Of a DNA stretch of 64,000 nucleotides, positions 27,198 through 54,142 are shown in pieces. Positions within the stretch are counted from its first letter, which is position 1; each line of letters starts with the position of its first letter. The notes beneath the pieces were generated by a model. That model was not told where the DNA came from and did not search any database. It saw only the letters and a list, made by a program, of their open reading frames with translations. Position numbers and translations under genes: made by a program. Source of the DNA: a virus; the IMG/VR virus record IMGVR_UViG_3300032397_000003, positions 91,574 through 155,573 of that record. One strand, 5' to 3'.

Positions 27198-28541
27198 ATG
27201 AAGCTATCGGTGCAAGGAAATCCAAACTACTGTGCTACTATTGTAGCAATAGATAATGTAATAGAACTTGAGAATTGTCAAAATATTCAAGGAACTATTA
27301 TACAAGGTTGTCATGTAATTGTAAGTAAGGAAGTAAAGGTTGGTGATGTGGGGGTTTTCTTCCCTACAGAATGTTCTATCAAAGATATTTTTCTTAAAGC
27401 TAATAATCTTTACAGAGATAAAGAATTAAATACTGATAAAGAGAAAGCAGGGTTCTTTGAGTTAAATGGTAGAGTTCGTTGTATGAAGCTTAGAGGATTT
27501 AAGTCTGATGGATTCTTTATGCCTATGCATAGTTTAGCTAGCATTCCCGATATTAAAAATAATTTTGAGAAATATGTAGCCTCTGCTTCTATACCTATTG
27601 GAACAGACTTTGATCATATTGATGGACAAATGATTTGTGAGAAGTATATAATTAAATCTAAAACTCAAGGAGCACCAAATTCTAAAAAAGATAAAAAGAG
27701 TCTTAAAGTAAAAAGATTTAATAAACTCCGAGATGACATCTTTCGCTTCCACATCGATACTGCCCAGCTTGCAAAGAATATGCTTATGATAAATCCTGAT
27801 GACATAATTTCCATAACAGAAAAAGTTCATGGTACCTCGGCCATCGCATCTTATATTCTATGTAATAGAAAACTTACATGGAAAGATAAACTCGCTAAAC
27901 TTATTGGAGCTAAAGTAAATGAATTTGAATACGACCACATCTGGAGTTCCAGAAGAGTCATAAAAAATCAGTATTTATACGAAGATAAGTTGACTCATTT
28001 CTACTCAGAAGATATTTGGAAAACTGGAATGGACGAGCTTAAACCCTTTATCCAAAAAGATATGACAATCTATTATGAAATCGTTGGGTACTTATCAGAA
28101 GGGAAAATGATTCAAGGTCAATTTGATTATGGATGTCAAGTAGGCAAGCATGAGAAATATGTATACCGTATCACAACGACCAATGAAAGTGGGGTAGCTT
28201 TTGAATGGAGTATGAAGCAAGTTCAGGATTGGTGTAAACAGAATGGATTAAAAGCTGTTCCTCTTCATTACTATGGATATGCTAAAGACTTGTTTAAGGA
28301 TATTAGTGTTGAGAATCACTGGCATGAGAATTTTCTATCTAAACTACAGGACACTTATCTTGAAAAGAAATGTACTATGTGTCGTAATGATGTACCGGCA
28401 GAGGGAATCTGTTTAAGAAAGGAATCGCTCGACATTGAAGTCTGGAAATTAAAATCGTTTGCTTTCAGAGCTATGGAGACAAAAGAGATGGATTCTGGTA
28501 ATGAGAATATAGAAGACTCTCAAGAAATAGATGCTGTATAA
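27198..28541 (+). CDS. RNA ligase, DRB0094/Rnl5-like
   Basis: 447 residues. An N-terminal OB-like domain (about 1-160, with VGDVGVFFPTECSI and CMKLRGFKSDGFFMP) precedes the nucleotidyltransferase core: motif I EKVHGTSA with Lys209 as the likely AMP acceptor, IWSSRRVIKN (about 248-257), YYEIVGYLSEG, motif IV AEGICLRKE, and motif V EVWKLKSFAF. This order fits the RNA ligase family typified by Deinococcus DRB0094. It would repair nicked RNA, for example tRNAs cut by host defences. No partner kinase/phosphatase is seen nearby. Confidence 0.85.
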   Translation: MKLSVQGNPNYCATIVAIDNVIELENCQNIQGTIIQGCHVIVSKEVKVGDVGVFFPTECSIKDIFLKANNLYRDKELNTDKEKAGFFELNGRVRCMKLRGFKSDGFFMPMHSLASIPDIKNNFEKYVASASIPIGTDFDHIDGQMICEKYIIKSKTQGAPNSKKDKKSLKVKRFNKLRDDIFRFHIDTAQLAKNMLMINPDDIISITEKVHGTSAIASYILCNRKLTWKDKLAKLIGAKVNEFEYDHIWSSRRVIKNQYLYEDKLTHFYSEDIWKTGMDELKPFIQKDMTIYYEIVGYLSEGKMIQGQFDYGCQVGKHEKYVYRITTTNESGVAFEWSMKQVQDWCKQNGLKAVPLHYYGYAKDLFKDISVENHWHENFLSKLQDTYLEKKCTMCRNDVPAEGICLRKESLDIEVWKLKSFAFRAMETKEMDSGNENIEDSQEIDAV

Positions 28542-28575
28542 GACTTCTTACTAAAAATAATAATTCGCTCTGGTT

Positions 28576-28670: not shown

Positions 28671-29801
28671 ATGAAAAAAATATTATACATATCCCCTTAT
28701 GAAGAATTTGTAGTAGCTCAGAATGGGGGGTATGGAGTTGTAGCTGAATCATTTAAAAGAATGTTTGATAATATGAGTAGTATAGAAGTTGAATATGTCA
28801 ATATAAATATTCTTGCTTCAGGAAATTTAAATAGAATAAATCAAAGATTTGATGTGTGCATACTACTCGTACATCCATCCTCTTTTGAAAATAAAATATT
28901 TAAACAAAATATGGAGTATGTTTCATCTATATGTGATAAAACATATATTCATATCTTTTGGGAAACAAGCCCTACGCCCTCTAAATGGAAATGGTTATGG
29001 CAATCTGATATCTTTACAGGATTTATTTCACCTTCAAAGTTTGTATTTGATATGATAAATTATGAAACTAAAAAATTCAATAAAGAAAATCATCTTATCT
29101 ATTGTCCTGTGTTTGAAGAAGATTATGAAAAGTATAAAATTAGTATTTCTAAAAAAGAAACAGAAGATGTATTTAATGTTCTCTATATGGGACAGTATAC
29201 AAAAAGAAAAGGAATGGAAGATGCTATAATCGGATTTGTTCAAGCTCTATCTGAATATAAAGATTGTAGACTGGTATTAAAGTATCATCCTTTATCAGAT
29301 AAAGAATTACCTGCATCTGATTTGATTTCAAATTTAGTAAGTACAAACACAAAAAAGATGAATGCTAAAATATATGAAGTCACGGGTAATCTCAGTAAGG
29401 ATGATATCTATAGTTTATATAATGAAGCTTCTGTATTATTATTTCCTTCAAGAGGAGAAGGATATGGTCTTCCTTTAGTTGAAGCAGGTATGATTGGACT
29501 TCCCTGCATTTATACTGATTGGTCATCCACAAAAGAAACAGGAAAGTTTAGAGGTAATAAATCTATAGCTTATATATTGGATACTGCTCAAGGAATGGCT
29601 CAGTATGATTATGAAGGCAATTCTGTATACGCAGTTCCATATATAAAAGACATTGTAAAGAATTTAAAAGAATGTTATGAAGCATGGAAGTATAGTAAAG
29701 AAGAATATTATGAATATACTAATAATAACGATATTGATATAATTAAGAAATTTGGCCCTAAAGTATTTATGGAACAAATTTCAAAGTTGATAGGAGAATA
29801 A
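28671..29801 (+). CDS. Glycosyltransferase, GT4 family
   Basis: 376 residues, GT-B fold. It starts with ILYISPYEEFVV and GGYGVVAESF (donor cleft), has NVLYMGQYTKRKGMEDAI at the linker, and ends with the GT4 signature VLLFPSRGEGYGLPLVEAG (E-x7-E). It opens the glycan cluster, whose genes follow each other with overlaps or gaps of a few bases. It would transfer a sugar from an NDP-sugar donor; acceptor unknown. Confidence 0.85.
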   Translation: MKKILYISPYEEFVVAQNGGYGVVAESFKRMFDNMSSIEVEYVNINILASGNLNRINQRFDVCILLVHPSSFENKIFKQNMEYVSSICDKTYIHIFWETSPTPSKWKWLWQSDIFTGFISPSKFVFDMINYETKKFNKENHLIYCPVFEEDYEKYKISISKKETEDVFNVLYMGQYTKRKGMEDAIIGFVQALSEYKDCRLVLKYHPLSDKELPASDLISNLVSTNTKKMNAKIYEVTGNLSKDDIYSLYNEASVLLFPSRGEGYGLPLVEAGMIGLPCIYTDWSSTKETGKFRGNKSIAYILDTAQGMAQYDYEGNSVYAVPYIKDIVKNLKECYEAWKYSKEEYYEYTNNNDIDIIKKFGPKVFMEQISKLIGE

Positions 29802-29806
29802 ACAAT

Positions 29807-30823
29807 TTGAGTAATGAAATAATTTCTTTAATAACAGGTGATGGACAGGATACATTATGGCTTAGTAAATTTCTTTTAGAGAAAGGTCACACAGTTATAG
29901 TGGGTTCAAGAAGAAGTGGATCAAATACTATCTGGAAGTATAAAGAACAAGGTATATATGATAATCCTAAATTAAAATTTGTACTTATGGATTTAAATGA
30001 ATTCCATAATGTTAATAATGTAGTTAAAAAATATAAACCTGATTATATTTATAATCTAGGTGCTCAAAGTTTTGTAGCTGCTTCATGGGATAACCCTTTA
30101 ATGACTATGCAAACAAATAGTTTAGGAGTTATATACTTACTGGACTCTATCAAAAATAATTATTTAAATACCAAATTTTATCAAGCAGGAACTTCAGAAA
30201 TGTTTGGAAAGGTGCAAGAGATGCCACAAACAGAAAAAACACCTTTCTATCCAAGATCAATGTATGGTGTATCAAAATTGGCAGCTTATTGGTCTATTGT
30301 TAATTATAGAGAATCTTATGGGATGTTTGCTTGTAATGGAATACTCTTTAATCATGAGAGTTGTTATAGAGGGTCAGAATTTTTAACCAAGAAAGTTGTT
30401 GAGAATGTGGTTTTAATAAAAAAAGGAAAACAAGATTTTTTTGAACTTGGAAATCTTAATGCTAAAAGAGATTGGGGATTTGCAGGTGACTACTGTGAAG
30501 CGATGTATTTAATGTTGAAGCAAGATATACCCCAAGATTTTGTTATAGCAACAGGGAAGACTCATTCAGTAAAAGAGTTTGTTGAAAAATGTTTTCAATA
30601 TGTTGGCATAGATATCTATTGGGAAGGTAGTGAAGAAAATGAAATTGGATTTGATGGAAGTGGGAAAACTTTAATAAAAGTTAATAAACAATTTTATAGA
30701 CCAACAGAAGTTGATATATTACTGGGTAATCCCCAAAAAGCAAAAAACATATTGAATTGGAAACCTAAAATGTCATTTGATGATCTTGTTTCTCATATGA
30801 TGGAATATGAGGTAAAAAAGTGA
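29807..30823 (+). CDS. gmd: GDP-mannose 4,6-dehydratase-like enzyme
   Basis: 338 residues from a TTG start with TAGGAGAATA upstream. Extended SDR fold: GDGQDTLWLSKFLLEKGHTV in the nucleotide loop (shortened relative to the usual GxTGQDGxYL), NLGAQSFVAASW, the catalytic triad region TSE (129-131) with Y153-x3-K157 in MYGVSK, NHES and KRDWGFAGDY. These are GMD-type blocks. It makes GDP-4-keto-6-deoxymannose, precursor of fucose, rhamnose or perosamine. The altered loop (GDGQD) may change cofactor contact. Confidence 0.85.
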   Translation: MSNEIISLITGDGQDTLWLSKFLLEKGHTVIVGSRRSGSNTIWKYKEQGIYDNPKLKFVLMDLNEFHNVNNVVKKYKPDYIYNLGAQSFVAASWDNPLMTMQTNSLGVIYLLDSIKNNYLNTKFYQAGTSEMFGKVQEMPQTEKTPFYPRSMYGVSKLAAYWSIVNYRESYGMFACNGILFNHESCYRGSEFLTKKVVENVVLIKKGKQDFFELGNLNAKRDWGFAGDYCEAMYLMLKQDIPQDFVIATGKTHSVKEFVEKCFQYVGIDIYWEGSEENEIGFDGSGKTLIKVNKQFYRPTEVDILLGNPQKAKNILNWKPKMSFDDLVSHMMEYEVKK

Positions 30824-31923
30824 TACTCTATGGTGCAGGGGAACTAGGAAAACTTGCCCATCAATTTTTAGACTTCTATAATATAGAACATATTGTATGT
30901 GATGACAACCCTGAAAATTATATGCATGATAGTTTTTGGGTTGGTAAACCTATATTTAAATTAAGTAATTTATCTATTGATCTCCTTAATACTAGTTTAC
31001 TGGTTTGTATTTCAACAGCTTCATACAATACGATAAGACAGAAATTAAATAATAAAGGGTTTACAAATGTTAAACCTTTCTTTCAGGTAGCAGAGGAAAT
31101 AAATAAAGCTAATGCATATAAACATCCTTGTACAAATGGATGGAAAATAAAAAATCATTCTGAATATACTTATGATGTGATTGAAAGTTCTTTTAAAGAT
31201 ACTTATTCCAAATATGCTTATGCACAATTTTTTGATTGGCATAACGACTATACAGAATTTATAAATAATGATTTCCCAATTAATTGTAATGATAGATATT
31301 TTATTCCTGAAGTGTTAGATGTGTTACATGATAATGAAGTATTTATTGATGTTGGTGCTTATGACGGAAGAGTTACTAAAAAGTTTATAGAGATAGTTAG
31401 AGGTAAGTATGAACATATTTATATGTTTGAGCCTACCGATTCTATGTGTGTAAGTTATGAAAAGATATACAAATATAATTATGCTTTAGGTGATACTGAA
31501 GATAAATTTATTAATTTTAATAAAGAGCAAGGATATTTATGCAAGGTAGATAAACTCTCAAAAGAAAAAGTTGGGATACTTAGATTAGACAATCTTGAAC
31601 TTACCCCAACATTCATTAAGTATCATCTTGAAGGGTATGAATTAAAAGCAATTAAAGGATCGATTAAAACTATTAAAAAACATAGACCAATTATTACAGT
31701 TACTACTTATCACACTGAAGAAGGATTATATAAACTTCCTATGCATCTTATTAAAAATTTGAAAGATTATAATTTCTATTGGAGAAATCATAATTATCAA
31801 GGGCAGGGGGCTGTAATGTATTGTATACCTAAAGAAAGATGGAGTATATCATTTTCAACAACTATCCATGTAAATGATAATTGGCAAGTATATCAAGATT
31901 TAAAAAAATGGGCAGGATTATGA
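30820..31923 (+). CDS. Two-domain protein: Rossmann/PglD-like N-terminus and FkbM methyltransferase
   Basis: 367 residues from GTG overlapping the previous TGA. N-terminal VILYGAGELGKLAHQFLDF resembles nucleotide-binding starts of sugar-modifying proteins. The C-terminal part has the FkbM methyltransferase layout: FIDVGAYDGRVTKKF (SAM loop, about 185-200), YMFEPT, LRLDNLE and KYHLEGYELKAIKGSIKTI, RPIITVTTYH. It probably O-methylates a sugar. Overlaps the following glycosyltransferase. Confidence 0.75.
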   Translation: MILYGAGELGKLAHQFLDFYNIEHIVCDDNPENYMHDSFWVGKPIFKLSNLSIDLLNTSLLVCISTASYNTIRQKLNNKGFTNVKPFFQVAEEINKANAYKHPCTNGWKIKNHSEYTYDVIESSFKDTYSKYAYAQFFDWHNDYTEFINNDFPINCNDRYFIPEVLDVLHDNEVFIDVGAYDGRVTKKFIEIVRGKYEHIYMFEPTDSMCVSYEKIYKYNYALGDTEDKFINFNKEQGYLCKVDKLSKEKVGILRLDNLELTPTFIKYHLEGYELKAIKGSIKTIKKHRPIITVTTYHTEEGLYKLPMHLIKNLKDYNFYWRNHNYQGQGAVMYCIPKERWSISFSTTIHVNDNWQVYQDLKKWAGL

Positions 31924-33224
31924 ATATAGTTCATATAACACCCCATCTTGGAGGAGGGGTAAAAACAGTTCTACTCGGTTGGGCAAAAGAAGATAAAGAA
32001 AATAAACATATTTTTTTATCCCTTGGTTATACTGATAATGAAGTAAAAGAAACCTTTTTAAAATTAAATATTGCTCTGTATGATAATCTATATAAAGATT
32101 ATGATTTTATATCTGAATTAGTTTTTTTTGCTGATGTGGTGGTAATTCATTATTGGAACTTCCCGCCTCTTATTCACCTCTTATTAAATAGTAATATACC
32201 TGAATGTAGAGTTATTACATGGTGTCATAATTCAGGATTCCATGCTCCGTATACTATACCAAAAGGAGTAGTAGAATATTCTGATAAATTTATATTTACT
32301 TCCCCTATAAGTTATAATTTAGGTATATGCAAAGAATATCCTCCTGATAAATTTGATTGTATATGGTCAACAGGTGGTGTTGATAAATATCAGAAGATAC
32401 AAAAGAAAAGGCATGAAGGATTTAATATTCTTTATATAGGTACATTAGATTTTGCAAAACTTAGAAATGATTTTGTTTATATATGTTCTGAAATACTAGA
32501 GGAGATTCCTGAAGCAATTATCACTGTATGTGGTAATGGTTCATCTATGAAAGAAATTGAATATTCTATTTCTGATTTAGAATTACAAGATAGAATTAAA
32601 CTAGAAGGATTAGTAGAAGATATAAAACCTTATCTTCAAGTAGCGGATGTATTTTTATATCCTTTAGACTCATATCATTATGGTACAGCAGAACAAATTC
32701 TAGGTGAAGTGATGGCTTGTGGATTAGTTCCTATTGTGTTTGATAATCCATGTGAAATGGAAATTGTAGAAGATGAGATGACAGGATTCGTAGTAAGTAC
32801 AATTCAACAATGTATAGACAGGGTTAAAGAATTATATATTGATAATGAAGATGGAATCACTTGGAGTCAACTAACTTTAAATGCTTCTCTATCGGCTTTA
32901 GAAAAGTATTCTATAAGTAATATGATAGATGATTGGAATAAATTATTTAAAGAATCAACATCTCTTCCAAAGAAAAAAAGAGAATGGAATACTTGTTTTG
33001 AAGGGATGTATGGTATAGGTACAGTTACTTTTTTAGAATCACTTAATGAACAGGAAGCAAATATATTCCATAATTATATTTCTTATGAAAGACAATTAAA
33101 GACTTTATTAAAATCTTCTCTTCAATGGAATTCAGAAAGTAAAGGATCAATAAAACAGTATCTAAAATATTTTCCTGAAGATGTATATTTAAATAGATTT
33201 AAAAAACTAATGGAGGAGAACTAA
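31920..33224 (+). CDS. Glycosyltransferase, GT4 family
   Basis: 434 residues from ATG at 31920 (ATGA overlap with the previous stop); a longer frame from 31881 lies inside the previous gene. GT-B features: IVHITPHLGGGVKTVLLGWA, FNILYIGTLDFAKLRNDF, and DVFLYPLDSYHYGTAEQILGEVMACG with the E-x7-E-like donor motif. A helical extension of about 90 residues at the C-terminus may bind a partner or acceptor. Confidence 0.8.
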   Translation: MNIVHITPHLGGGVKTVLLGWAKEDKENKHIFLSLGYTDNEVKETFLKLNIALYDNLYKDYDFISELVFFADVVVIHYWNFPPLIHLLLNSNIPECRVITWCHNSGFHAPYTIPKGVVEYSDKFIFTSPISYNLGICKEYPPDKFDCIWSTGGVDKYQKIQKKRHEGFNILYIGTLDFAKLRNDFVYICSEILEEIPEAIITVCGNGSSMKEIEYSISDLELQDRIKLEGLVEDIKPYLQVADVFLYPLDSYHYGTAEQILGEVMACGLVPIVFDNPCEMEIVEDEMTGFVVSTIQQCIDRVKELYIDNEDGITWSQLTLNASLSALEKYSISNMIDDWNKLFKESTSLPKKKREWNTCFEGMYGIGTVTFLESLNEQEANIFHNYISYERQLKTLLKSSLQWNSESKGSIKQYLKYFPEDVYLNRFKKLMEEN

Positions 33225-34252
33225 TGACAATAGGTACAAGATATATACAAGAGGGAAGAGTTCCCTTACAAACATTACTTCCATTAGAAGCACCACTTGT
33301 TCTTTTTATTGACCCATCTGATAAATGTTGTTTAAAATGTTCCTTTTGCCCTACTGGAGATTTTAAATTAATGAAGGAAGTAAAAAGACCTCTTCAGTCT
33401 ATAAATTTTAATCTATATAAGAAAATAATTGATGACTTACAAAAATTTGAAACTAAAGTAAAAGTAATTCGTTTATATGGACATGGCGAACCACTATTGA
33501 ATCCTCACTTTATAGATATGGTTAAGTATGCTAAACAATCTGATAAAGTAGAGACAGTAGATACAACTACGAATGGAATGTGTTTATATCCTCAATTTAA
33601 TATAGAGATTATAGAGTCAGGAATAGATAGAATAAATATTTCAGTTAATGGATTAAGTGACGAACAATATTTTGAATTTACTAAAACAAAAGTAAATTTT
33701 AAAAGATATGTTGCTAATATAAAACACCTTTATGAAAATAAAAAAAACACTTACATATTTATAAAAATAAATGGTGATACTATATCTAAAGACGATGAAC
33801 AAAAGTTCTTAGATATTTTTGAACCTATTGCTGATTCAGTTGCAATAGAAAAATCTATGGGATGTTGGCATGGATTCGATCCAAAAGGATTTATACGTTC
33901 AGATAATAATGTTGGTATCTATGGACAAGCTTTAGAAGAAGAAGCTTTAGTTTGTCCCTACATTACATATTCTATGATGATAAATTCAGATGGCATGGTT
34001 TCAGCTTGTTTTCTTGATTGGAATAGAAACCTCCAAGTAGGTAATATATTTGATAATTCTGTTTATGATATATGGAATGGAAAGCCTTTAAACAGTTTAA
34101 GAAAATTTATGTTAGAAGGAAAAAGAAGATTACATACTTATTGTAATACATGTGATCAACTTAAAAAAGGTATGCCTTCTAACATTGATAAATATGCAAA
34201 AGAACTTTACGGTAAATATAATTTTGAGGGTATAGAAGAGGATGGACAATAA
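33224..34252 (+). CDS. Radical SAM/SPASM enzyme
   Basis: 342 residues. The radical SAM cluster motif CX3CX2C is C35, C39, C42 (within DKCCLKCSFCPTG). RLYGHGEPLLNP and TTNGM are further core strands. The C-terminal SPASM-like part has CPYITYSMMINSDGMVSACFLDW, VGNIFDNSVYDIWNG and YCNTCDQ. These enzymes do radical chemistry on peptides, sugars or cofactors. Inside a glycan cluster, sugar or lipid modification is likely, but the substrate is unknown. A TAATG overlap and SD GGAGGAG mark the start. Confidence 0.85.
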   Translation: MTIGTRYIQEGRVPLQTLLPLEAPLVLFIDPSDKCCLKCSFCPTGDFKLMKEVKRPLQSINFNLYKKIIDDLQKFETKVKVIRLYGHGEPLLNPHFIDMVKYAKQSDKVETVDTTTNGMCLYPQFNIEIIESGIDRINISVNGLSDEQYFEFTKTKVNFKRYVANIKHLYENKKNTYIFIKINGDTISKDDEQKFLDIFEPIADSVAIEKSMGCWHGFDPKGFIRSDNNVGIYGQALEEEALVCPYITYSMMINSDGMVSACFLDWNRNLQVGNIFDNSVYDIWNGKPLNSLRKFMLEGKRRLHTYCNTCDQLKKGMPSNIDKYAKELYGKYNFEGIEEDGQ

Positions 34253-34919
34253 TTTAATTTTTGATTTAGGTTTTTGTGATGGAACAGATACAACTTTTTA
34301 TTTAGAAAAAGGATTTAAAGTTGTTGCAGTAGAAGGTAACCCCTCACTTGCTGAAATAGGTAGTAGAAGATTTAAAGATGAGATAGATTCCGGTCAATTG
34401 ATCTTATTGAATAGGGTTGTTGCTGAAGGAGTATCTAAAATGGATTTCTACATACATCCAGAAAAAATAGAATGGAGTAGTATCTATAAGCATATAGCAG
34501 AACAAGATGAAAAAGAAAGTATAATGGTATCTGTTGATTCAATAAGTATATTTGAATTGTTCAAGACTTTTGATACTCCTCATTATATGAAAGTGGATAT
34601 AGAAGGTTGTGATGTATTAACATCTTTTCATTTAAGTCAAGCTAAAGAAAAACCTAAGTTTGTTTCATTTGAACTTAATCGAAAAGATTATTTATCTTTA
34701 TTCTATAATCTTCATAAAGCAGGGTATACTGAGTTTCAATTAATAAATCAAGCAAATAATAAACCACTTAGTTCAGGAAAATTTGGACAATTGCTTCCAG
34801 AGAACAATTGGATAAGTTTAGAAGAAGCATTATTTAGATACTGTAAATTTAATGAACTAAGAGCATTGGATTATGATAATCTAAGTTTTGGTTGGTTAGA
34901 TTTACATGCTAGGAGATAA
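34242..34919 (+). CDS. FkbM-family methyltransferase
   Basis: 225 residues, starting inside the end of the radical SAM gene. FkbM blocks: LIFDLGFCDGTDTTFYLEKGFKVVAVEGNP (SAM binding), MDFYIHPE, SVDSISIFELF, MKVDIEGCDVLTSF and FVSFELN. It probably methylates a glycan hydroxyl. Confidence 0.8.
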   Translation: MDNNLIFDLGFCDGTDTTFYLEKGFKVVAVEGNPSLAEIGSRRFKDEIDSGQLILLNRVVAEGVSKMDFYIHPEKIEWSSIYKHIAEQDEKESIMVSVDSISIFELFKTFDTPHYMKVDIEGCDVLTSFHLSQAKEKPKFVSFELNRKDYLSLFYNLHKAGYTEFQLINQANNKPLSSGKFGQLLPENNWISLEEALFRYCKFNELRALDYDNLSFGWLDLHARR

Positions 34920-34922
34920 ATA

Positions 34923-35489
34923 ATGAAAGAAAATAATTTTGAAAAAATATTTAAAAATTGTGATACAGATAAATGTGTGAATTACTCACAAGCTTACCAT
35001 GATTCATTTGATGACATAAGACAAGATATAAATCTTATTTTTGAAGTGGGGGTTAATAGAGGTGGTAGCGTTAAAGGATGGAAAGAATATTTTCCTAATG
35101 CTCTTATAGTAGGAATTGATATTGACAGTACATGGTATTTTGAAGACCCCGATGGGAGAATTAAAATAGAAATAGGAAGTGCTAATCAAAAAGATTTTAT
35201 AGAGTATCTAATAAGTAAATATGGATACCCTGATATTGTTATAGATGATGGGTCACATTTAAGTAGTGATATTAAAGATACATATAATTTACTTTATGAT
35301 TATACTAAACTATGTTATGTTATAGAAGACTATGGAGTACAGTTTAAAGAATTTGAGAATGGAATGTATATAAATGACGGAGTGTCTGCTACAAATATTT
35401 TACATAATCACGTAGATCATTTACTATTACACAAAGACTCTATCAAGTCTATTAGAGTATATCATTCTATTTGTTTATTGTTCAAATGA
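34923..35489 (+). CDS. Class I SAM methyltransferase (cephalosporin hydroxylase/macrocin-OMT-like)
   Basis: 188 residues. LIFEVGVNRGGSVKGWKEYFPNALIVGIDID is the SAM pocket and VIDDGSHLSSD the acidic loop of sugar O-methyltransferases in this group. Short compared with relatives. The stop overlaps the start of the next gene. Confidence 0.75.
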   Translation: MKENNFEKIFKNCDTDKCVNYSQAYHDSFDDIRQDINLIFEVGVNRGGSVKGWKEYFPNALIVGIDIDSTWYFEDPDGRIKIEIGSANQKDFIEYLISKYGYPDIVIDDGSHLSSDIKDTYNLLYDYTKLCYVIEDYGVQFKEFENGMYINDGVSATNILHNHVDHLLLHKDSIKSIRVYHSICLLFK

Positions 35490-36139
35490 AGATACACTTA
35501 ATATCGGCTTTTTATAGAAAACACTTAGTTCCTACTTTAATCAATTATTTTGAATCTATGGGAATAGAATGGTATCCTGTATGTGATTATAATGATATAG
35601 AAGTATTCAAAGATAATAAGAGGACATGGATTCATCCTATATTGTGTCCCCCATTGAATCTACCAGGAGATCAAGCATTTAAAAAACTTAATGACTTCAT
35701 AGATCAAAAAATAATAATAGATGAAGATTATTATTGTTTCTGTGGAGACGATGATATGTATGAACAAGGATTCTTTGAGGAGATAAAAAAGCAGACAGCT
35801 AAAATAATATTTGTTTCTATTGCTTGTGGTGATACTATTCCATCAACTTCACCTCATAATATACATCCAATGATTATAAAAACTTTTGATGATGTTGCTG
35901 TATGTAGAATAGGACTTCCTCAATATATAATTAAAGGAGAAATATTAAAACAGATTAGATTTAAGAATGAACAACCTTATGATGATGGAACATTTGCTGT
36001 AGAATTAAAAACTAGATTTCCTAATGACTGTATATTTCTACCTGACTTATTTGCATTTGGAAATTATTTTGAATTGGGTAGATATACTAATGATAATTGG
36101 AAATTAAAACCACAATGGGAGTTACCAAAGATAATATGA
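35486..36139 (+). CDS. Putative glycosyltransferase (GT-A type)
   Basis: 217 residues from ATG at 35486 (ATGA overlap). It starts IHLISAFYRKHLVPTL, has the metal-binding acidic motif FCGDDDMYEQGFFEE, and DDGTFAVELKTRFPND. The truncated gene at 38895 appears to be a paralogue of its N-terminal half. Overlaps the next gene's start. Confidence 0.65.
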   Translation: MKIHLISAFYRKHLVPTLINYFESMGIEWYPVCDYNDIEVFKDNKRTWIHPILCPPLNLPGDQAFKKLNDFIDQKIIIDEDYYCFCGDDDMYEQGFFEEIKKQTAKIIFVSIACGDTIPSTSPHNIHPMIIKTFDDVAVCRIGLPQYIIKGEILKQIRFKNEQPYDDGTFAVELKTRFPNDCIFLPDLFAFGNYFELGRYTNDNWKLKPQWELPKII

Positions 36140-37125
36140 TTAAACACTCAGATAAAAGATGGTATATTCTACAACCAGTCTATGGAGGTAAGTGGTCTAT
36201 TCCAGATGCTTCTCTTCCTTGGACTAATGATTGTAATATAGCATTAGGGAGATTACTACAAGCTCCTGCAAGTCACTTTTCAAATGAAGATATAGATTTA
36301 ACTGCTGATATCTACTACATGATTATATTTAATGTTGATCATTATGAAAAAGAGTTAGAACTTATAAAAAAATTAAAATCACTAAATAAAAAAGTTATAC
36401 TTACTTTCTCTGCTGATATGAGATTCTTAACTGGGGAGGGATTACTTGGACATCAAGGAATAAATTATACTGATCTATGTGCTGAAGCTGATTTAGTTAT
36501 TTCAGGAGTTCCAGAAAATATAAAATTTTATGGAAGATATCAACATAAAGTTATTTCAATGGGAGTATTCCTAGAGAGACTGAATTTTTCAAATTCAGTT
36601 CTACCAAAAGATATAGATATACTAATGTCAGGTTCTATATTTAGGAATGAACCATCACTATCATTTGCATTAGAACTTATGTGTATTTTAAAAGAAAAAT
36701 ACCCTGATAAGAAAATATCTTATCCTACTAGACATAAATGGCTTCTTCAACCTAGATATCCTCAAATTGATTTTATTGAAGCAGAAGATTATATGTATAA
36801 TACAGGTTTAGTTCCTTTACTACAAAGATCAAAAGTATATATAAATCCTGAGTTAAGACCTAATCCTGGTAGAGCAATGATAGAAGCATTTTATTGTAGA
36901 GTACCTTATATATGTAGTAGCATGAGTTACCCTGCAAAATATATACCAGACTTTACTTATGATAATATGAACTTTGATACTATTATAAATCAATATGAAA
37001 TGTTGATAAATTCAGATTTAACTAAAATAATGAGAACAGCAGAAGAATTAGCAGAAGAAGATTATTTTGACAATGCTATACAGAGAATAATGGATAGATT
37101 ATACCCTGAAGGAGATTCAATTTGA
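36136..37125 (+). CDS. Glycosyltransferase, GT4/GT-B-like
   Basis: 329 residues from ATG at 36136; in-frame ATGs at 36115 and 36097 are inside the previous gene. It contains VILTFSADMRFLTGEG, DILMSGSIFRNEPSL (linker) and SKVYINPELRPNPGRAMIEAFYCRVPYICS, a donor-binding motif with E at the GT4 position. Overlaps the next TTG start. Confidence 0.7.
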   Translation: MIKHSDKRWYILQPVYGGKWSIPDASLPWTNDCNIALGRLLQAPASHFSNEDIDLTADIYYMIIFNVDHYEKELELIKKLKSLNKKVILTFSADMRFLTGEGLLGHQGINYTDLCAEADLVISGVPENIKFYGRYQHKVISMGVFLERLNFSNSVLPKDIDILMSGSIFRNEPSLSFALELMCILKEKYPDKKISYPTRHKWLLQPRYPQIDFIEAEDYMYNTGLVPLLQRSKVYINPELRPNPGRAMIEAFYCRVPYICSSMSYPAKYIPDFTYDNMNFDTIINQYEMLINSDLTKIMRTAEELAEEDYFDNAIQRIMDRLYPEGDSI

Positions 37126-37595
37126 AAATTTTATATCTAAGTCTTTTCCCAGAAACAAATAATTGTAATGAAATAGCTAATTTGGAATATTTTATAGATT
37201 CAACCTATTACTATGGAATATCCGACCTATTTTCCTATCGTTTATTTTCTAATCACGAATCTATGGTAGATACCCTCAGAACTGTTTTCAAGTGTGAAAA
37301 AGACAGTGGAGTTACTTGTCCTGATTTTACGAAAGTGGCTACTGCATATGGAATAGCAACCACTCGAATTATAAACCATACAGACATAGAATATATTATT
37401 AAAAGTGCTTTAGACTACGAAGGTCCAATGTTAATAGAAGTAATGATTGATCATTTTCAACCATTTCATCCTAGAGTAATGACTGAAAAGAAACCAGATG
37501 GAAAACTAGTGTCTAAACCCCTTGAAGACATGTATCCTTTTTTAGATCGTGAATTGTTTAAAAATCAAATGATAGTGGAGCCAGTTAATGAATAA
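37122..37595 (+). CDS. Chimera: glycosyltransferase N-terminus joined to ThDP-enzyme C-terminus
   Basis: 157 residues, TTG start with AAGGAG upstream. Residues 1-58 (KILYLSLFPETNNCNEIANL… to TVFKCE) are nearly the same as the start of the intact gene at 39128. Residues 60-157 (DFTKVATAYGIATTRI, GPMLIEVMIDHFQPFHPRV, KPLEDMYPFLDRELFKNQMI) are the C-terminal end of an acetolactate-synthase-like thiamine diphosphate enzyme of surface-sugar loci. The ThDP-binding GDGS block is absent, so the enzyme activity cannot be complete. The frame is open across the junction near base 37295. Probably a recombination product. Confidence 0.75.
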   Translation: MKILYLSLFPETNNCNEIANLEYFIDSTYYYGISDLFSYRLFSNHESMVDTLRTVFKCEKDSGVTCPDFTKVATAYGIATTRIINHTDIEYIIKSALDYEGPMLIEVMIDHFQPFHPRVMTEKKPDGKLVSKPLEDMYPFLDRELFKNQMIVEPVNE

Positions 37596-38592
37596 AATAA
37601 TACAACAAGATTTACAATACATAATAGAATCACCTATAATTGATTGGAAAAGATTTGCTAATAAAACTATTCTAATTACAGGAGCTAATGGTATGTTAGC
37701 CTCTTATACGGTAGAAACCCTACTTTATTTAAATAATGAAGTATTAAAAGATAATCCTTGTACTGTTATTGCTTTAGTTAGAAATGCAGAAAAAGCTTCA
37801 AAAAAGTTTGGAGAAAATAGAAAAGGATTAGTAAAAATATGTCAAGATGTTTCTAGTCCTTTGTATAATATCCCTAAAGTAAATTTCATTATACATGCTG
37901 CAAGTTTAGCTTCACCAAAATATTATAATGAATCTCCTGTAGATGTACTACTCCCTAATATTATTGGAACTAAAAATACTCTAGCTTTGGCTTATCAGTT
38001 TAATATAGAAGGTTATTTATTTTTTAGTACTGGAGAAATATATAATCATATGGATACTTTGAATATTCGTTCTTGCTATGGGGAGAGTAAACGAATGGGA
38101 GAAGTTCTATGTACTAGTTATCATCACCAATATAAAGTTCCAACAAAGATAGCAAGAATATTTCATACGTATGGTCCAGGAATGGATTTAGAAGGAGGAA
38201 GAGTATTTGAAGACTTTGTGAAGAATATAATAAATAATGAAAATATTGAACTCAAGAGTGATGGTAGTGCTATAAGACAATTCTGTTATATAGCTGATGC
38301 TACTATTGCATTCTTTAAAATCCTACTTGATGGTGAATCAGGACAAGCATATGATGTTGCTAATAATTCACAAAAGATATCTGTAAGAGATTTAGCTGAA
38401 GTTATGGTAAATCTCTACCCAGAAAAAAATCTAAATTATTCTTTTGTTCCTCAAGATAAAGCGTATTTAAAAAGTATGACCAAAGAATATATACCGGATA
38501 TCTATAGTATAAATAAATTAGGTTGGTATCCTAATATAACAATAGAACAAGGATTTAAAAGAACGATAGAAAGTTTTGAAACTAATAATTAA
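37588..38592 (+). CDS. NAD-dependent sugar epimerase/dehydratase
   Basis: 334 residues, extended SDR. NAD-binding TILITGANGMLASY (28-40), HAASLASPKYY, FFSTGEIYNHM, and active-site YGESKRMGEVL (Y-x3-K), IARIFHTYGPGM. Related to UDP-glucuronate decarboxylase/epimerase types found next to ThDP enzymes in bacterial surface-polysaccharide loci, the same order as the ThDP fragment upstream here. It overlaps that fragment by 8 bp. Confidence 0.8.
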   Translation: MNKIIQQDLQYIIESPIIDWKRFANKTILITGANGMLASYTVETLLYLNNEVLKDNPCTVIALVRNAEKASKKFGENRKGLVKICQDVSSPLYNIPKVNFIIHAASLASPKYYNESPVDVLLPNIIGTKNTLALAYQFNIEGYLFFSTGEIYNHMDTLNIRSCYGESKRMGEVLCTSYHHQYKVPTKIARIFHTYGPGMDLEGGRVFEDFVKNIINNENIELKSDGSAIRQFCYIADATIAFFKILLDGESGQAYDVANNSQKISVRDLAEVMVNLYPEKNLNYSFVPQDKAYLKSMTKEYIPDIYSINKLGWYPNITIEQGFKRTIESFETNN

Positions 38593-38614
38593 AGAGGTAT
38601 TATGGAATGAACTT

Positions 38615-38767
38615 ATGATTAAATCCCAAGATGAATTACATGATTTTATAGCACTAACTCAAAAGATGTCTAATGAATATATAGAAGACTTAGGATCACC
38701 AGAACCACATTCTTGGATTGCTTTAGGATTCTGGTCTGATTTTTTTAGTCTATTTAAGGAGAGATAA
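38615..38767 (+). CDS. Small hypothetical protein
   Basis: 50 residues from ATG at 38615; an upstream TTG at 38576 gives 63 residues but lacks a binding site. Helical N-terminus and an aromatic C-terminus (WIALGFWSDFFSLF). Unknown. Confidence 0.45.
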   Translation: MIKSQDELHDFIALTQKMSNEYIEDLGSPEPHSWIALGFWSDFFSLFKER

Positions 38768-38769
38768 AA

Positions 38770-38898
38770 ATGGGAATAAATCCACCCAAACTACCAATAA
38801 AACCTAAACCAATTATTTTAAGTAATAACATAAAATGTAATTATTGTGGTTCTGATATAGAAGTAAACGAAGTTTGTAAAGGGTGTGGAAATAAATGA
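38770..38898 (+). CDS. 42-residue zinc-ribbon protein
   Basis: ATG with AAGGAG upstream. A Pro/Lys-rich start (NPPKLPIKPKP) is followed by a zinc ribbon with CNYC and CKGC (residues 23-39). The stop overlaps the next ATG. Likely a small zinc-binding adaptor; role unknown. Confidence 0.6.
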   Translation: MGINPPKLPIKPKPIILSNNIKCNYCGSDIEVNEVCKGCGNK

Positions 38899-39125
38899 TA
38901 CACCTAATTACTCCATTCAGTCGTCCAGAAAATTTACAATTTTATCTTGATAATCTAAAGGATAAGAATGTTATTTGGCATCCTATTTTTCAAGGGGGCG
39001 TACCAGAAGAATTAGAGGCATTTGATTGGGTAAGAGCTTCTAATGTATTTGAAGTCCCTGAAGGAATATTTCCTAATATTTATAAGTGCAATACATTTAT
39101 TACGCCATTTAATAAAGGAGTTTAA
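38895..39125 (+). CDS. Truncated glycosyltransferase-like protein
   Basis: 76 residues. IHLITPFSRPENLQFYLDNL, VIWHPIF and KCNTFI align with the first third of the 217-residue protein at 35486 (IHLISAFYRKHLV, IEWYPV, KLNDFI). The gene ends right there with TPFNKGV and a stop, lacking the catalytic acidic motif. It is followed 2 nt later by the intact gene whose 5' end is duplicated at 37122, so this looks like a second recombination end point. Confidence 0.6.
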   Translation: MIHLITPFSRPENLQFYLDNLKDKNVIWHPIFQGGVPEELEAFDWVRASNVFEVPEGIFPNIYKCNTFITPFNKGV

Positions 39126-39127
39126 AT

Positions 39128-39883
39128 TTGAAAATATTATATTTAAGTCTTTTTCCTGAAACAAATAGCTGTAATGAAATAGCAAATTTAGAATACTTTA
39201 GAAATTCTGCTGAATACTATGGAATATCAGATTTATTTTCTTATAGATTATTTTCTAATCATGACTGCATGGTTAATACTTTAAGAACCGTTTTTGATTG
39301 TGAAGATTATAAACAAGAGAAACTATTTGATTTTGAAAAATACCCTATACAAGTTGAGAGATTATTCTTTGATACTGTATATAGAGACACTATGAATGAG
39401 AAAAGAGCACATGAAATAGCCTGGTCTAAACAAAGAATATTTGCTTATACTACTTTCAAACATGTATTAGATAGATTTGATTATATATTTTATAATGATG
39501 CAGATATTAAAATAGATGCTAAAGATATACATGAATTATGTAAAGTACTAGAAGTTAGAAATTTTGATGAAACAATATATCCGAGTTTTATAAATATACC
39601 TTATGTTATAAAACTTAAAAAACAAATTGTATCTGATAGCTTTGGATCATTTATTATACCAACTAAAGTGATAGAAGATGTTGCCCATGTAGAAAAAAGT
39701 CTATATGAAATATATGAACAAGATGGAAAGTTTTATAGGAAAAATGCTCCTGATTGGATATTAAGACAGCAACTTATCAGAGAAGGGTATAAGGAAATAA
39801 GAGGGGAAAGTTGTAATACAAAGCATTATATAAATGATAATAAGTATTATGAATTTGATGCAGGTAAATTAACATTTAATTAA
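39128..39883 (+). CDS. Putative glycosyltransferase (GT-A type) with DxD
   Basis: 251 residues, TTG start with AAAGGAG upstream. KILYLSLFPETNSCNEIANL at the start; IFYNDADIKIDAKDIHELC holds a DxD metal site (about 120-135); SFINIPYVIK and a C-terminal APDWILRQQLIREGYKEI follow. Its first 58 codons are duplicated with about 78% DNA identity at 37122. Last gene before the late-type small protein. Confidence 0.6.
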   Translation: MKILYLSLFPETNSCNEIANLEYFRNSAEYYGISDLFSYRLFSNHDCMVNTLRTVFDCEDYKQEKLFDFEKYPIQVERLFFDTVYRDTMNEKRAHEIAWSKQRIFAYTTFKHVLDRFDYIFYNDADIKIDAKDIHELCKVLEVRNFDETIYPSFINIPYVIKLKKQIVSDSFGSFIIPTKVIEDVAHVEKSLYEIYEQDGKFYRKNAPDWILRQQLIREGYKEIRGESCNTKHYINDNKYYEFDAGKLTFN

Positions 39884-39903
39884 AATTATCTCAGAAATTG
39901 TTT

Positions 39904-39920
39904 TTACTAATAATAAAATG
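39904..39920 (+). promoter_or_regulatory. Class C (late-type) promoter for the small structural-like gene
   Basis: TTACTAATAATAAAATG, 62 nt before the ATG at 39983. A hairpin AATTGTTT / AAACAATT (39940-39960) lies in the leader. This separates the next gene from the glycan operon's own transcription. Confidence 0.6.
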
Positions 39921-39982
39921 ATATAGGACTTAGGTTCTTAATTGTTTAATAAAAACAATTTTATCAGAAGAGGTAATTTATT

Positions 39983-40264
39983 ATGGCTCAGAGTTGGAAA
40001 AAACTAAAAACCGTCACCGCAACAGTTTCAGCGGCAGATGACTCAGCAGCAAAAAAGTTTATATTCATTGGAACAGGTGTTCCTGCAACCGCAACAGGTT
40101 CTTTTGCTTATGTATTAGGAGTAACTAGATCAGGAGTTGATTTTACAAACAAAGCAAAACATGCTTACAGTACTGTATCAGGGGCAGTTGTTATTCAAGA
40201 TAACGCATCTGATTATGTATTAACAAGTGGTGACATCGTTACTATTATAGGTACTTATATTTAG
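39983..40264 (+). CDS. Small Ser/Thr/Ala-rich protein, candidate virion surface or decoration protein
   Basis: 93 residues, Ala/Ser/Thr/Val-rich (TVTATVSAADDSAAKK, GVPATATGSFAYVLGVTRSG, ending SGDIVTIIGTYI), beta-strand pattern, no signal peptide. Codons are G+C-richer than neighbours, like the capsid gene, which suggests high expression. It has its own late-type promoter and SD (AGAGG) although it sits inside the glycosyltransferase cluster. A head or tail decoration protein, possibly glycosylated by its neighbours, is a reasonable inference. Confidence 0.65.
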   Translation: MAQSWKKLKTVTATVSAADDSAAKKFIFIGTGVPATATGSFAYVLGVTRSGVDFTNKAKHAYSTVSGAVVIQDNASDYVLTSGDIVTIIGTYI

Positions 40265-40278
40265 TATCTAATTTTTAA

Positions 40279-40302
40279 ACTCCTCTTGAAATACAGAGGA
40301 GT
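40279..40302 (+). other. RNA hairpin after the small structural-like gene
   Basis: 8-bp perfect stem ACTCCTCT / AGAGGAGT with an 8-nt loop, without a downstream U run. More likely an mRNA 3'-end stabiliser or attenuator than a full terminator. Confidence 0.45.
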
Positions 40303-40324
40303 AAAAAATTCAAGGAGAACTCTT

Positions 40325-41599
40325 TTGAAATCCCAACAAAAAGTTTTAATCTGTGGAGATTCATTTAAAAATATATCAGGTCTTTCTTACGTGTCTTTAA
40401 GTTTAGCTAAATTCTTTATTCAAAAGAATTATGAAGTAGCCTATTGTATTCTTTCTGGAGCAGATTGTACTAGTAAGGATTTAATAAATAAAGGACATTT
40501 CTTTTATGAGAATCTTATAGATTTAAAGGTATATAATTGTCAAAATAAAAAAGATGGATCATTACAACTATTTAATAACTGTATCAAAGACCATAAACCT
40601 ACTATAGTTCTATCTGTACATGATCTATGGCAATTTGAAAATATATATGTATCCGCCTATAGAGACACCTATACCTGGATTTCCTACTGCCCTATAGAAA
40701 GTGCTTATTATTCTGAATATATAGTTAATCCTACAAAGACAGATAATAATATTAGAAAATCGTTGAGTGCATTGTGTGAGAATATGGATTATGCTATTGC
40801 TTATAATAATGTTGGTAAATCTCAATTAGCTAAATTTAAATCTAGTGTTACTGACAGTCTACCTAATGGATTAGATGATTTTTATTTTGATGAAAGTGAA
40901 ATAGATAGACAAGTAATGTTTAAAGGGGTAGCTAAAGAAGATGATTTTATATTTATGTCTACTGGTCATAACTTTAATCGTAAAGGATTAGATTATGTAG
41001 TAGATGCTTTCTATAAGTTTTTAAAAGCTAATAGTATGAATAAAAAATATAAACTATATCTACACGGTTATCTTGATACTATTGATGCAGGTACAGATAT
41101 TAAATCTATGATATATGAAATGGGAATATCTGATTATGTTATAATGTCACAGGATAATACAAAGACTCCTAAACGAGAACTGTATAAGAGATATAGATGT
41201 TGTGATGCTTATATTGGATTACCTCTAGCAGAAGGATTTGGATATGGATTCTTTGAAGCCATGCAAAGTGGTCTTCCTATTATATATCATAATGTTGGTG
41301 GTATACAACAATATCTAAAATCAAGTGTCAGTTATCCTATAGATAGCGTTGCTACTATGAGACCTAATAATTATTTTTGTGAATGGAAGATTCCTGGTGT
41401 AGATCAGGCTGTTCAAGCTATGATCAAAGTATCTCAATTTTCAAAAGAAGAACTGGAAGATATCAAAGTAAATAATATGAAACAAAGTAAAAAGTATTTA
41501 TGGAGTGAAGTTTATAAACAACTTGAAGTTATAATAGATTTTGATACAGTAGGAAAAACAGGAATATTTAATAAACTAAATATTAAAAGAATGGCATAA
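40325..41599 (+). CDS. Glycosyltransferase, GT4 family
   Basis: 424 residues from TTG at 40325 with CAAGGAGAAC upstream; the frame continues back to 40286 through the hairpin but that start has no binding site. GT-B: KVLICGDSFKNISGLSYVSLSLAKFF, FMSTGHNFNRKGLDYVVDAF and GLPLAEGFGYGFFEAMQSGLPIIYHNVGG (E-x7-E). Last gene of the glycan cluster. Confidence 0.85.
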   Translation: MKSQQKVLICGDSFKNISGLSYVSLSLAKFFIQKNYEVAYCILSGADCTSKDLINKGHFFYENLIDLKVYNCQNKKDGSLQLFNNCIKDHKPTIVLSVHDLWQFENIYVSAYRDTYTWISYCPIESAYYSEYIVNPTKTDNNIRKSLSALCENMDYAIAYNNVGKSQLAKFKSSVTDSLPNGLDDFYFDESEIDRQVMFKGVAKEDDFIFMSTGHNFNRKGLDYVVDAFYKFLKANSMNKKYKLYLHGYLDTIDAGTDIKSMIYEMGISDYVIMSQDNTKTPKRELYKRYRCCDAYIGLPLAEGFGYGFFEAMQSGLPIIYHNVGGIQQYLKSSVSYPIDSVATMRPNNYFCEWKIPGVDQAVQAMIKVSQFSKEELEDIKVNNMKQSKKYLWSEVYKQLEVIIDFDTVGKTGIFNKLNIKRMA

Positions 41600-41680: not shown

Positions 41681-42013
41681 ATGATGAAACAAGTAATGAC
41701 AAAAGAACATAGACAATTTTTAGAGAATTGTAGATCAAGAGAAACTTATCTAAAATATGTTCGAGCAAGGGTTAGGAATGCCTTTGACTTTAACGAAGAG
41801 GAATTACAAACATATCATAAAGCATATACTAAACTTGCTGATAGTGTTGAAAGTTTTAATGGATCACAATTTAAACATCACATTATGACTATTATGAATT
41901 CTGTCTCATCTTATGATGAGAGATATTTTAATTACAAGAAAGCAATTGAAGAAGCTTCTGAATTATATAATAAAGTTAATGTATTACATAAATCAAAACT
42001 AATTAAACTTTAA
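41681..42013 (+). CDS. Small helical hypothetical protein
   Basis: 110 residues, SD AAGGAGAAAG, starts ATGATG. Basic, helical (KEHRQFLENCRSRETYLKYVRARVRNAF), with a second helical half. No family recognised. Confidence 0.65.
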   Translation: MMKQVMTKEHRQFLENCRSRETYLKYVRARVRNAFDFNEEELQTYHKAYTKLADSVESFNGSQFKHHIMTIMNSVSSYDERYFNYKKAIEEASELYNKVNVLHKSKLIKL

Positions 42014-42023
42014 GGGGGAAGGA

Positions 42024-42224
42024 GTGAAAGAAATACATAACTTATCTGATGCAGTTAAATATTATGCTTTTAATTTTTTATGTGAACACCTAAATAATAA
42101 AATTAAAGAAGTAGAGTTTGATAAACTTGGAGATGCTTGGGATAAAGTAGTTTCCTATAATGCAACTATAACATTTGAGCAGTATATAAATTCTTGGAAA
42201 AGTAGGGGGTATAGAATTGTATGA
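42024..42224 (+). CDS. Small hypothetical protein (GTG start)
   Basis: 66 residues from GTG with GGGGGAAGGA upstream. Helical, mixed charge, no motif. The stop overlaps the next ATG. Confidence 0.55.
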   Translation: MKEIHNLSDAVKYYAFNFLCEHLNNKIKEVEFDKLGDAWDKVVSYNATITFEQYINSWKSRGYRIV

Positions 42225-42370
42225 AACTAATAGCATTGATTATATTTTCAATTATACTTTTTGTTGTATTATGTATAATAGCTAAAGCATCAAGTAACAA
42301 TAGAGATAGATATAACTTTTTATGGGAAGGATTTGAAAAAGATGTTAAGGAGAAAAAAGATGTTCAGTAG
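42221..42370 (+). CDS. 49-residue membrane protein
   Basis: ATG overlaps the previous stop (ATGA). Transmembrane helix at residues 3-21 (LIALIIFSIILFVVLCIIA), then a charged cytoplasmic or periplasmic tail ending KEKKDVQ. Its 3' end overlaps the next small membrane gene in another frame, an arrangement seen for spanin pairs, though no lipobox supports that. Confidence 0.5.
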   Translation: MKLIALIIFSIILFVVLCIIAKASSNNRDRYNFLWEGFEKDVKEKKDVQ

Positions 42371-45230: not shown

Positions 45231-46481
45231 TTACTTTTTATCCTTTGTTGGTATGTATTGATAGGGTACTCCACCAAATCCAAATTCTACTTTACCTTTT
45301 ATATTAGACATTTTTCTTATATCGTCTTCTGAATATATTTTAGCCATAGAATACTCGACTGTTAAATCACCCCCTATAAATTTAGGTAATCCCTCTAATG
45401 ATTTTAATTGTGGATTTCTATCACATATAAAATCATCCCCTACAGTATCAGGACTATTTTTTAAAGATGTTAGATTATTCATATGACAAGCAAAGTGCCC
45501 ATCAACAGTTCCAAATTTAAAAGGAATTTCTTTTAAGTGTTTATTCCCTATATCAACATATCCCTCAAAATCAACAGTTAAATCCATATTTATAATATAA
45601 TCTTTATTCTCTAAACCTAAATTTTTAATATTATATTCTATCTTTTGTTTCGGATCATGGATATTTATAGTTTTCTTAGCTGGAACATTATCTACTCTTG
45701 TTATAACTTCAAATGCTCTTGTATTAAAGAATACAGCTTGCATAGGTTCTGATGGATGTATATATCCTTTACCTGATTTATCTGCAAATCCACTATAACC
45801 TAAATCTTTTGATAGAATAAGATTCCATTTAGTTGATGATTGCTTTGAATCTGCTGATAAAAAATCAGACAACAATCTTGTTATATTCCACATAGAAACT
45901 GATGGATTTTTTTCTTTAGCTTCTTTTAAAGAGTAATCTATAAACTCTAACCATAGCTCTTTTTCATTATCAAAAATTTGTACATCAAAATACTTTCTTA
46001 TATGTCTAATAGCTTTTTCGGTCTTATATTCTTTAAACATTATTTCTTTATATTTCTTTTCTAATATCTTTATATCCATATCATACTTATCACTACCATA
46101 ATCCTTATACATATCTTCTATAAAATGTGATTTATCTTTTACTCTAATAAATGAAATGTATTTAGCACTACCGGCAAAGGGAGCATAAGAACCAACTGAC
46201 TTAGTATATATATTTTTACTTTCTGAACTTTCAAATCCTTTTGATAAGTTCATAAAGGGTGTGTAATTTTTAACAAATTCTCTAAGTGGGTATGTGTAAA
46301 TCCCTACAGGCGTATTGAACTTACTTTTAGGATTTATACCTATCTTATCTATTTCTGTAAATGATATATAAACATCTTTATCATCTTTATATTTATCTAC
46401 ATAATCCCAAGCACTTATATGAGGATTCTGCTCAGGATTTCTTCTTGCTTCATTGAAATTAAATGGTTTATATCTTTTCAT
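45231..46481 (-). CDS. Large protein with capsid-targeting-like start and LRR-like repeats
   Basis: 416 residues. It starts MKRYKPFNFNE|A, the signature shared with other putative head-packaged proteins. A central block (YISFTEIDKIGINPKSKFNTPVG, PFAGSAKYISFI) is recognised only as a motif of phage proteins. At about 325-385 there are short leucine-rich-like repeats (HFACHMNNLTSLKNSP, FICDRNPQLKSLEGLP). Such a protein could be an internal, injected effector. Stop and start touch both neighbours. Confidence 0.65.
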   Translation of the reverse strand: MKRYKPFNFNEARRNPEQNPHISAWDYVDKYKDDKDVYISFTEIDKIGINPKSKFNTPVGIYTYPLREFVKNYTPFMNLSKGFESSESKNIYTKSVGSYAPFAGSAKYISFIRVKDKSHFIEDMYKDYGSDKYDMDIKILEKKYKEIMFKEYKTEKAIRHIRKYFDVQIFDNEKELWLEFIDYSLKEAKEKNPSVSMWNITRLLSDFLSADSKQSSTKWNLILSKDLGYSGFADKSGKGYIHPSEPMQAVFFNTRAFEVITRVDNVPAKKTINIHDPKQKIEYNIKNLGLENKDYIINMDLTVDFEGYVDIGNKHLKEIPFKFGTVDGHFACHMNNLTSLKNSPDTVGDDFICDRNPQLKSLEGLPKFIGGDLTVEYSMAKIYSEDDIRKMSNIKGKVEFGFGGVPYQYIPTKDKK

Positions 46482-53818: not shown

Positions 53819-54142
53819 ATGGAAAATGAAAGATACCAAAAGTTTTTTGAAATGGCAAATATCTCTATTAAAAAAACTGGATTAGATTATATAGTTTGGA
53901 TATCTCCTCAATCGGGAAAAGAGAAACATAACGCTAGAATTAAAATTCAAATTGATAATGATTTTGTTCCTATAACAATCTCTGATAATCCAGAATTAAA
54001 AAGTAAAACCAAAATAGATTCAAAGAAACTCAACAAAGTGTATAAATGGATTATACTCAATAAAGAAACACTTTTAAAATATTGGAATGGTAAAGGTAAA
54101 ATTGGTATAGATGAGATACTGGATGAACTAAAGAAAATTTAA
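53819..54142 (+). CDS. 'EMANL' family small protein with capsid-targeting-like start
   Basis: 107 residues, SD AAAGGAG. NERYQKFFE|MANI at the start, then TGLDYIVWISPQSGKEKHNARIKI and VYKWIILNKETLLKYWNGKG, paralogous to 49996 and to the broken gene at 24153. Unknown function. Confidence 0.65.
   Translation: MENERYQKFFEMANISIKKTGLDYIVWISPQSGKEKHNARIKIQIDNDFVPITISDNPELKSKTKIDSKKLNKVYKWIILNKETLLKYWNGKGKIGIDEILDELKKI

Follow-up and report, generated by a model that had tools for sequence, protein, structure and literature searches.

A glycosyltransferase-ThDP enzyme fusion, probably a recombination scar, in the surface-sugar island of a tailed phage

How did an open reading frame (ORF) that starts as a glycosyltransferase and finishes as a ThDP enzyme arise in a phage, and does its product do anything? 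The ORF lies in the window, a stretch of 64,000 nucleotides that spans positions 91574 to 155573 of a virus record of 155,573 bases (G000). The phage is tailed and has contractile-tail genes; no tRNA was found in the window. The ORF belongs to an island of sugar genes on the plus strand at about 28671-41599, whose members from 28671 to 39128 are closely packed, neighbors either overlapping by 1-43 nt or lying 2-5 nt apart when some start codons are assumed. The features that matter here are listed below, with G002 and G009 denoting two other phage contigs.

13255-15099, baseplate wedge
17468-19030, tape measure
21694-23844, tail sheath
36097-37125, plus strand, upstream GT1-like glycosyltransferase, 57.5% to G009 30918-31892
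37122-37595, plus strand, chimeric ORF, 157 aa, TTG start
37122-37295, plus strand, 5' part of the chimera, 58 glycosyltransferase codons with the TTG start, 84% aa and 80% nt identity to 39128-39301
37291-37306, plus strand, junction zone, from sliding identity and alignment of the proxy parents, which have GTGAAG in common in the same codon phase
37296-37595, plus strand, 3' part of the chimera, final ~97 codons of a ThDP gene of the YerE/JanthE type, including its stop codon
37588-38592, plus strand, NAD-dependent epimerase/dehydratase (SDR), PF01370 at 9e-34, 65% to G002 27544-28560
38576-38767, plus strand, second scar, final 55 codons of a glycosyltransferase of the type at G002 30080-31003, 78% aa over residues 253-307
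38770-38898, plus strand, small ORF of 42 aa with two CxxC motifs (zinc-ribbon-like), read from the sequence
38895-39125, plus strand, third scar, first ~68 codons of a glycosyltransferase of the type at G002 31003-31617, 84% aa over residues 3-70
39128-39883, plus strand, intact glycosyltransferase, 251 aa, full length 51% to G002 36651-37391 and 57% to G009 31926-32675
54898-56706, NAD-dependent ligase

Structure of the chimeric ORF and its junction

The first-pass annotation had read this ORF as the 5' end of a glycosyltransferase fused in frame to the 3' end of a ThDP enzyme gene, and an identity switch at the junction bears this out. Bases 37109-37298 align with 39115-39304 at 80.5% identity over 190 nt (E 6e-36). 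In a sliding-identity analysis, the similarity to the glycosyltransferase drops at about 37297-37306, the same spot where identity to the ThDP gene of G002 climbs. The breakpoint had been put at base 37295; the data place it within about 37291-37306. When the two proxy parents are aligned, they share GTGAAG there in equal codon phase, and a shared run of at least 6 nt would occur at a random junction with p of about 0.004 (0.011 for at least 5 nt), but these proxies are only 70-83% nt identical relatives of the true parents, so that both the microhomology and the exact breakpoint are approximate. The ORF thus has the make-up of a phage intragenic mosaic, with two segments from different genes, each intact in relatives, in a single reading frame.

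The assignment of residues 60-157 to the end of a ThDP enzyme holds as well. Residues 60-107 match PF02775 (TPP_enzyme_C) with 24.8 bits against a gathering score of 21.9, spanning profile positions 99-151 of 151. The closest solved structure to the tail is 8rph (E 1e-12), and the tail is 71% aa identical to residues 499-598 of the G002 ThDP enzyme. Since the chimera retains only about residues 502-598 of that enzyme, it is devoid of the N-terminal and central TPP domains, of the ThDP-binding motif GDG (or CDG)...NN and of the catalytic Glu, in agreement with the earlier statement that the remnant cannot be catalytic alone. The glycosyltransferase part is restricted to residues 1-58 of 251 and does not extend to the FDYIFYNDADI (DxD-like) segment of the full-length fold. 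Judged by these missing parts, the chimera can be neither a ThDP enzyme nor a glycosyltransferase, and its product is very probably not an enzyme.

The ORF is tightly linked to its neighbors: 4 nt are shared between its start and the stop of the preceding gene and 8 nt between its stop and the epimerase start, and a GGAG just 5' of the epimerase ATG lies within the ORF. The epimerase has whole motifs, namely, YGESK (YxxxK) and TGANGML. The chimera is real, but it had been treated as a single event, and it turns out to be the first of three consecutive scars. The last few codons of the third scar resemble the end of a GT2 gene of G002 (TPFNK), and the 42-aa ORF between the second and third scars has no equivalent between the corresponding G002 genes according to the alignment.

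An assembly artefact joining two genes has nothing in its favor except the chimeric look. A separate contig, G001 (IMGVR_UViG_3300031885_000158), carries the same junction in identical DNA, with no nucleotide difference across 36686-38707, while differing elsewhere (15 mismatches in 10.3 kb and larger differences downstream). Judging by the record names, the two contigs would come from different samples. In addition, the 20% nt divergence between the glycosyltransferase copies makes a repeat-induced misjoin unlikely. Misassembly is therefore very unlikely, and we give it next to no credence. G001 was the only further copy of the chimera found in our scans. A DNA search of the phage collection gave no match, a tblastn search of it returned acetolactate-synthase ends only, and other family members found via the tail sheath, which are fragments, had no match to the chimera tail or to the ThDP gene.

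Beyond the island, about 200 bases net of window positions 42020-42276 are missing from G001. A cluster of substitutions at 41993-42014 adjoins this gap and includes a G001 stop codon near the end of ORF 41681-42013.

Intact relatives of the parents in related phages

The ThDP gene is intact in G002 (IMGVR_UViG_3300009169_000021), a contig of 65.9 kb whose tail sheath is 64% identical to that of the window phage. The two records have dozens of further genes in common, mostly at 40-87%, baseplate and replication genes among them, which places both phages in the same family. The G002 cluster (L005:1620-11017; G002:C1:19163-28560) consists, in order, of an RfbF-like gene, RfbH, an LdpA-like ferredoxin protein, a HAD hydrolase, an HMGL aldolase resembling 4-hydroxy-2-oxovalerate aldolase, an HpcH/HpaI aldolase, the ThDP enzyme, a 41-aa ORF, and the epimerase. 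The RfbF-like glucose-1-phosphate cytidylyltransferase passes TIGR02623 (309.6 against a cut-off of 300.25) and RfbH passes NF011936 (595 against 423); no dedicated CDP-glucose 4,6-dehydratase passed its cut-off among the G002 genes scanned. The ThDP protein (598 aa) contains all three TPP domains (PF02776, PF00205, and PF02775) and the GDG motif (VHGDGG), has JanthE (8rph) as its best solved match (2e-127), and lies in a CDP-sugar gene neighborhood. On this basis it is a predicted YerE-like enzyme, which would join an alpha-keto acid to a CDP-4-keto-dideoxy sugar by carboligation. G002 thus apparently carries most of a branched CDP-sugar pathway of the YerE/ErwE type.

In G002, the ThDP gene, the hydrophobic 41-aa ORF (L005 gap 9887-10000; G002:C1:27430-27543), and the epimerase are chained by start/stop overlaps. 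The 41-aa ORF is absent from the window, and ATGAAT is common to both of its edges, as read from the sequences. On the 3' side of the epimerase lie a putative glycosyltransferase of 307 aa (30080-31003), a glycosyltransferase-like gene of 204 aa (31003-31617), and a GT2 of 243 aa (31794-32525). The window therefore resembles G002 in having the same ThDP tail, epimerase, and glycosyltransferases in the same order. It differs in that the ThDP gene is intact in G002, that the CDP-sugar pathway genes are present there, and that the cluster occupies another genome location. At 1e-6, none of the ORFs in the 155-kb record that contains the window matches the RfbF, RfbH, LdpA-like, HAD, HMGL, or HpcH genes of G002.

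The earlier expectation that such an epimerase is the usual partner of the ThDP enzyme was well founded: in many of 49 bacterial YerE-type loci, an epimerase 38-50% identical to that of the window adjoins the ThDP gene. The proposal that the donor's gene order is kept proved correct too, with the epimerase directly 3' of the ThDP gene in loci L045 and L052 and, beyond the 41-aa ORF, 3' of it in G002. The donor had been taken to be bacterial, and bacterial loci with both genes do exist, but the nearest intact donor is a phage. As the related phage G002 has an intact ThDP gene and the same epimerase, with RfbF, RfbH, and the aldolases before them, the closest source is a branched-sugar cluster carried by phages, which in the end goes back to bacteria. 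Alternatively, this phage could have picked up a ThDP-epimerase fragment straight from a bacterium, independently of other phages; the cluster type is widespread in bacteria, with adjacent epimerases. We nevertheless find this route highly improbable: the best bacterial ThDP protein is only 43% identical to the G002 enzyme, against 71% between the G002 and window tails; bacterial epimerases reach at most 50% to that of the window, against 65% in G002; and the flanking glycosyltransferase remnants are G002-like at 78-84%.

G009 (IMGVR_UViG_3300032177_000015) has the site of the fusion unbroken, in an island that shows synteny with that of the window and contains orthologues of the genes at 28671, 29807, 30820, 31881, 33224, 34242, 36097, 39983, and 40286. 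There, an intact glycosyltransferase (31926-32675) comes immediately after the orthologue of 36097, and next come a 408-aa gene, a 93-aa gene, and the orthologue of 40286. Since the intact gene comes right after the 36097 orthologue, the 5' part of the chimera holds the ancestral glycosyltransferase position on the left, and the gene at 39128 sits at its place on the right, so that two glycosyltransferase copies flank the ThDP-epimerase block. The first 58 codons had been described as a duplicate of the gene at 39128; the match itself stands, but the position in G009 indicates that the piece is not simply a stray duplicate. The two window copies are sisters in trees (support, 0.93). Because the synonymous distance between them is near saturation (dS of 1.49 on 34 sites), two separate phage lineages, and not a recent duplication, may have supplied them.

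Three further observations concern other genes of these phages. A 298-aa gene of the contig G006 (19311-20207) matches two separate ORFs of the window's record (G000:C1:17951-19985), with its first 45 residues in one and the rest in the other, and small ORFs between them; this looks like a further case in the family of a gene either interrupted by an insertion or fused. Several otherwise different ORFs open with a shared leader like MxRYKPFxEE (G000 C1:17951-20720 and 611-1051; window 45231-46481 and 53819-54142), which we take to be reminiscent of the capsid-targeting leaders of T4 internal proteins. Lastly, the window ORFs 8996-10288 and 11051-12064, near the baseplate genes, are alike over their first ~140 residues (34%) and then diverge; tail fibre genes often share starts and then differ.

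Origin of the fusion and selection on the frame

The ORF is likely to be a scar of recombination, joined in frame within the variable surface-sugar island of this tailed phage, because G009 has the glycosyltransferase uninterrupted at this site and G002 has the ThDP gene intact. The starting block would have descended from a phage-borne YerE-type cluster of ThDP enzyme, epimerase, and glycosyltransferases, as still seen in G002, and would have been fused at codon 58 to the glycosyltransferase gene located after 36097 in the ancestral island. The event was probably an illegitimate recombination between short stretches of common bases (GTGAA); the GTGAAG that the proxy parents share in phase at the junction is suggestive of this mechanism. 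In the process, RfbF, RfbH, the aldolases, the first 500 ThDP codons, and most of three further glycosyltransferases would have been lost and the epimerase retained whole. The location of the sugar cluster differs between G002 and the window record; a G002-like cluster may have entered the window lineage and then shrunk, or the lineage may once have had the cluster and lost most of it in place.

The age of the fusion bears on whether the protein matters. In a three-way polarisation with G002 as outgroup, the N-terminal piece of the chimera has 14 unique nucleotide substitutions and no amino acid change, compared with 4 unique amino acid changes over the same piece of the intact glycosyltransferase at 39128; 5 further residues differ in all three sequences and are thus assignable to no branch. 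Estimates of dN/dS are about 0.07-0.08 for both pieces, with synonymous sites near saturation. For the tail, we used a consensus of 49 relatives (L012-L060 plus L073, a viral contig, filtered for length, with one member viral or all bacterial). The chimera and the intact G002 tail each show 1 exclusive departure from it, and the columns where the two tails differ favor the chimera in 12 cases and G002 in 13. By Ka/Ks, polarisation, and consensus departures alike, there is no sign of relaxed selection. The fusion is therefore young or constrained, and the absence of decay fits a recent fusion but also selection on it; G001 is too similar to the window for measuring selection after the fusion. 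Structure prediction for the 157-aa protein gave a mean pLDDT of 55 and a pTM of 0.43, a weak prediction that is compatible with a product that does not fold.

These results weigh on the idea that the fusion is a selected small protein, in which the N-terminal beta-alpha-beta piece of the glycosyltransferase and the ThDP tail serve as a noncatalytic partner or regulator of the epimerase or of host sugar enzymes. The open frame without decay, the purely synonymous N-terminal branch, the low dN/dS of both pieces, and a tail conserved to the same degree as in the intact enzyme would all be expected of it. However, most of the N-terminal branch may be older than the fusion and date from the time at which the piece still belonged to an intact glycosyltransferase, the fusion is known only from two nearly identical strains, the predicted fold is poor, and both pieces are cut inside domains. 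We hence judge this explanation unlikely. Its stronger form, in which a new phage protein that arose by illegitimate recombination would bind to the adjacent epimerase or to a sugar enzyme of the host and change the kind of surface sugar produced, seems quite unlikely.

A version of the scar explanation deserves more weight. Selection could keep the frame if translation of the chimera were needed to start the epimerase, its amino acid sequence being irrelevant. The overlaps of 4 nt with the upstream gene and 8 nt with the epimerase, the GGAG placed inside the chimera, and the similar chain in G002 point in this direction. The GGAG alone may suffice for the epimerase start, though, and the one-in-three chance of an in-frame join needs no selection, so that we hold this version as tentative and lean against it. 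If the ORF does anything, it would most likely relay ribosomes from the upstream genes to the overlapping epimerase start.

Comparison with known systems

Read as a recombination scar, the locus documents gene turnover in the sugar island of a phage with unusual completeness: intact parents in family relatives, an unbroken site, and three scars. Its tail is homologous to the C-terminal end of the YerE-like ThDP enzymes (YerE, ErwE, and JanthE, the protein of structure 8rph [PMC12188165]), of whose ~598 residues it keeps the last ~97. In LPS sugar pathways, these enzymes introduce a branch into CDP-4-keto-3,6-dideoxyglucose, and ErwE prefers 4-hydroxy-2-oxo acids (PMC12247030), a preference that the aldolases of the G002 cluster would fit. 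Solved relatives of the window epimerase include 8v4g, a Campylobacter SDR with an N-terminal extension and a CDP-linked sugar as its substrate (PMC10918830). None of the papers listed by a search on phage and yersiniose appears to concern a phage-encoded pathway. G002-type phages, which appear to carry most of a YerE/ErwE-type branched-sugar pathway, are candidates for altering host surface glycans.

Shuffling of protein fragments is established in phages, and the in-frame joining of unrelated protein pieces by recombination is what the chimera has in common with such intragenic mosaicism (PMC10684548). The cases described there shuffle domains, for instance, those of receptor-binding proteins and endolysins (PMC10684548), whereas both breakpoints of the chimera lie inside domains and its product is probably inactive. 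The fusion is thus a well-resolved case of a known kind, and the intact G002 cluster is the more interesting object.
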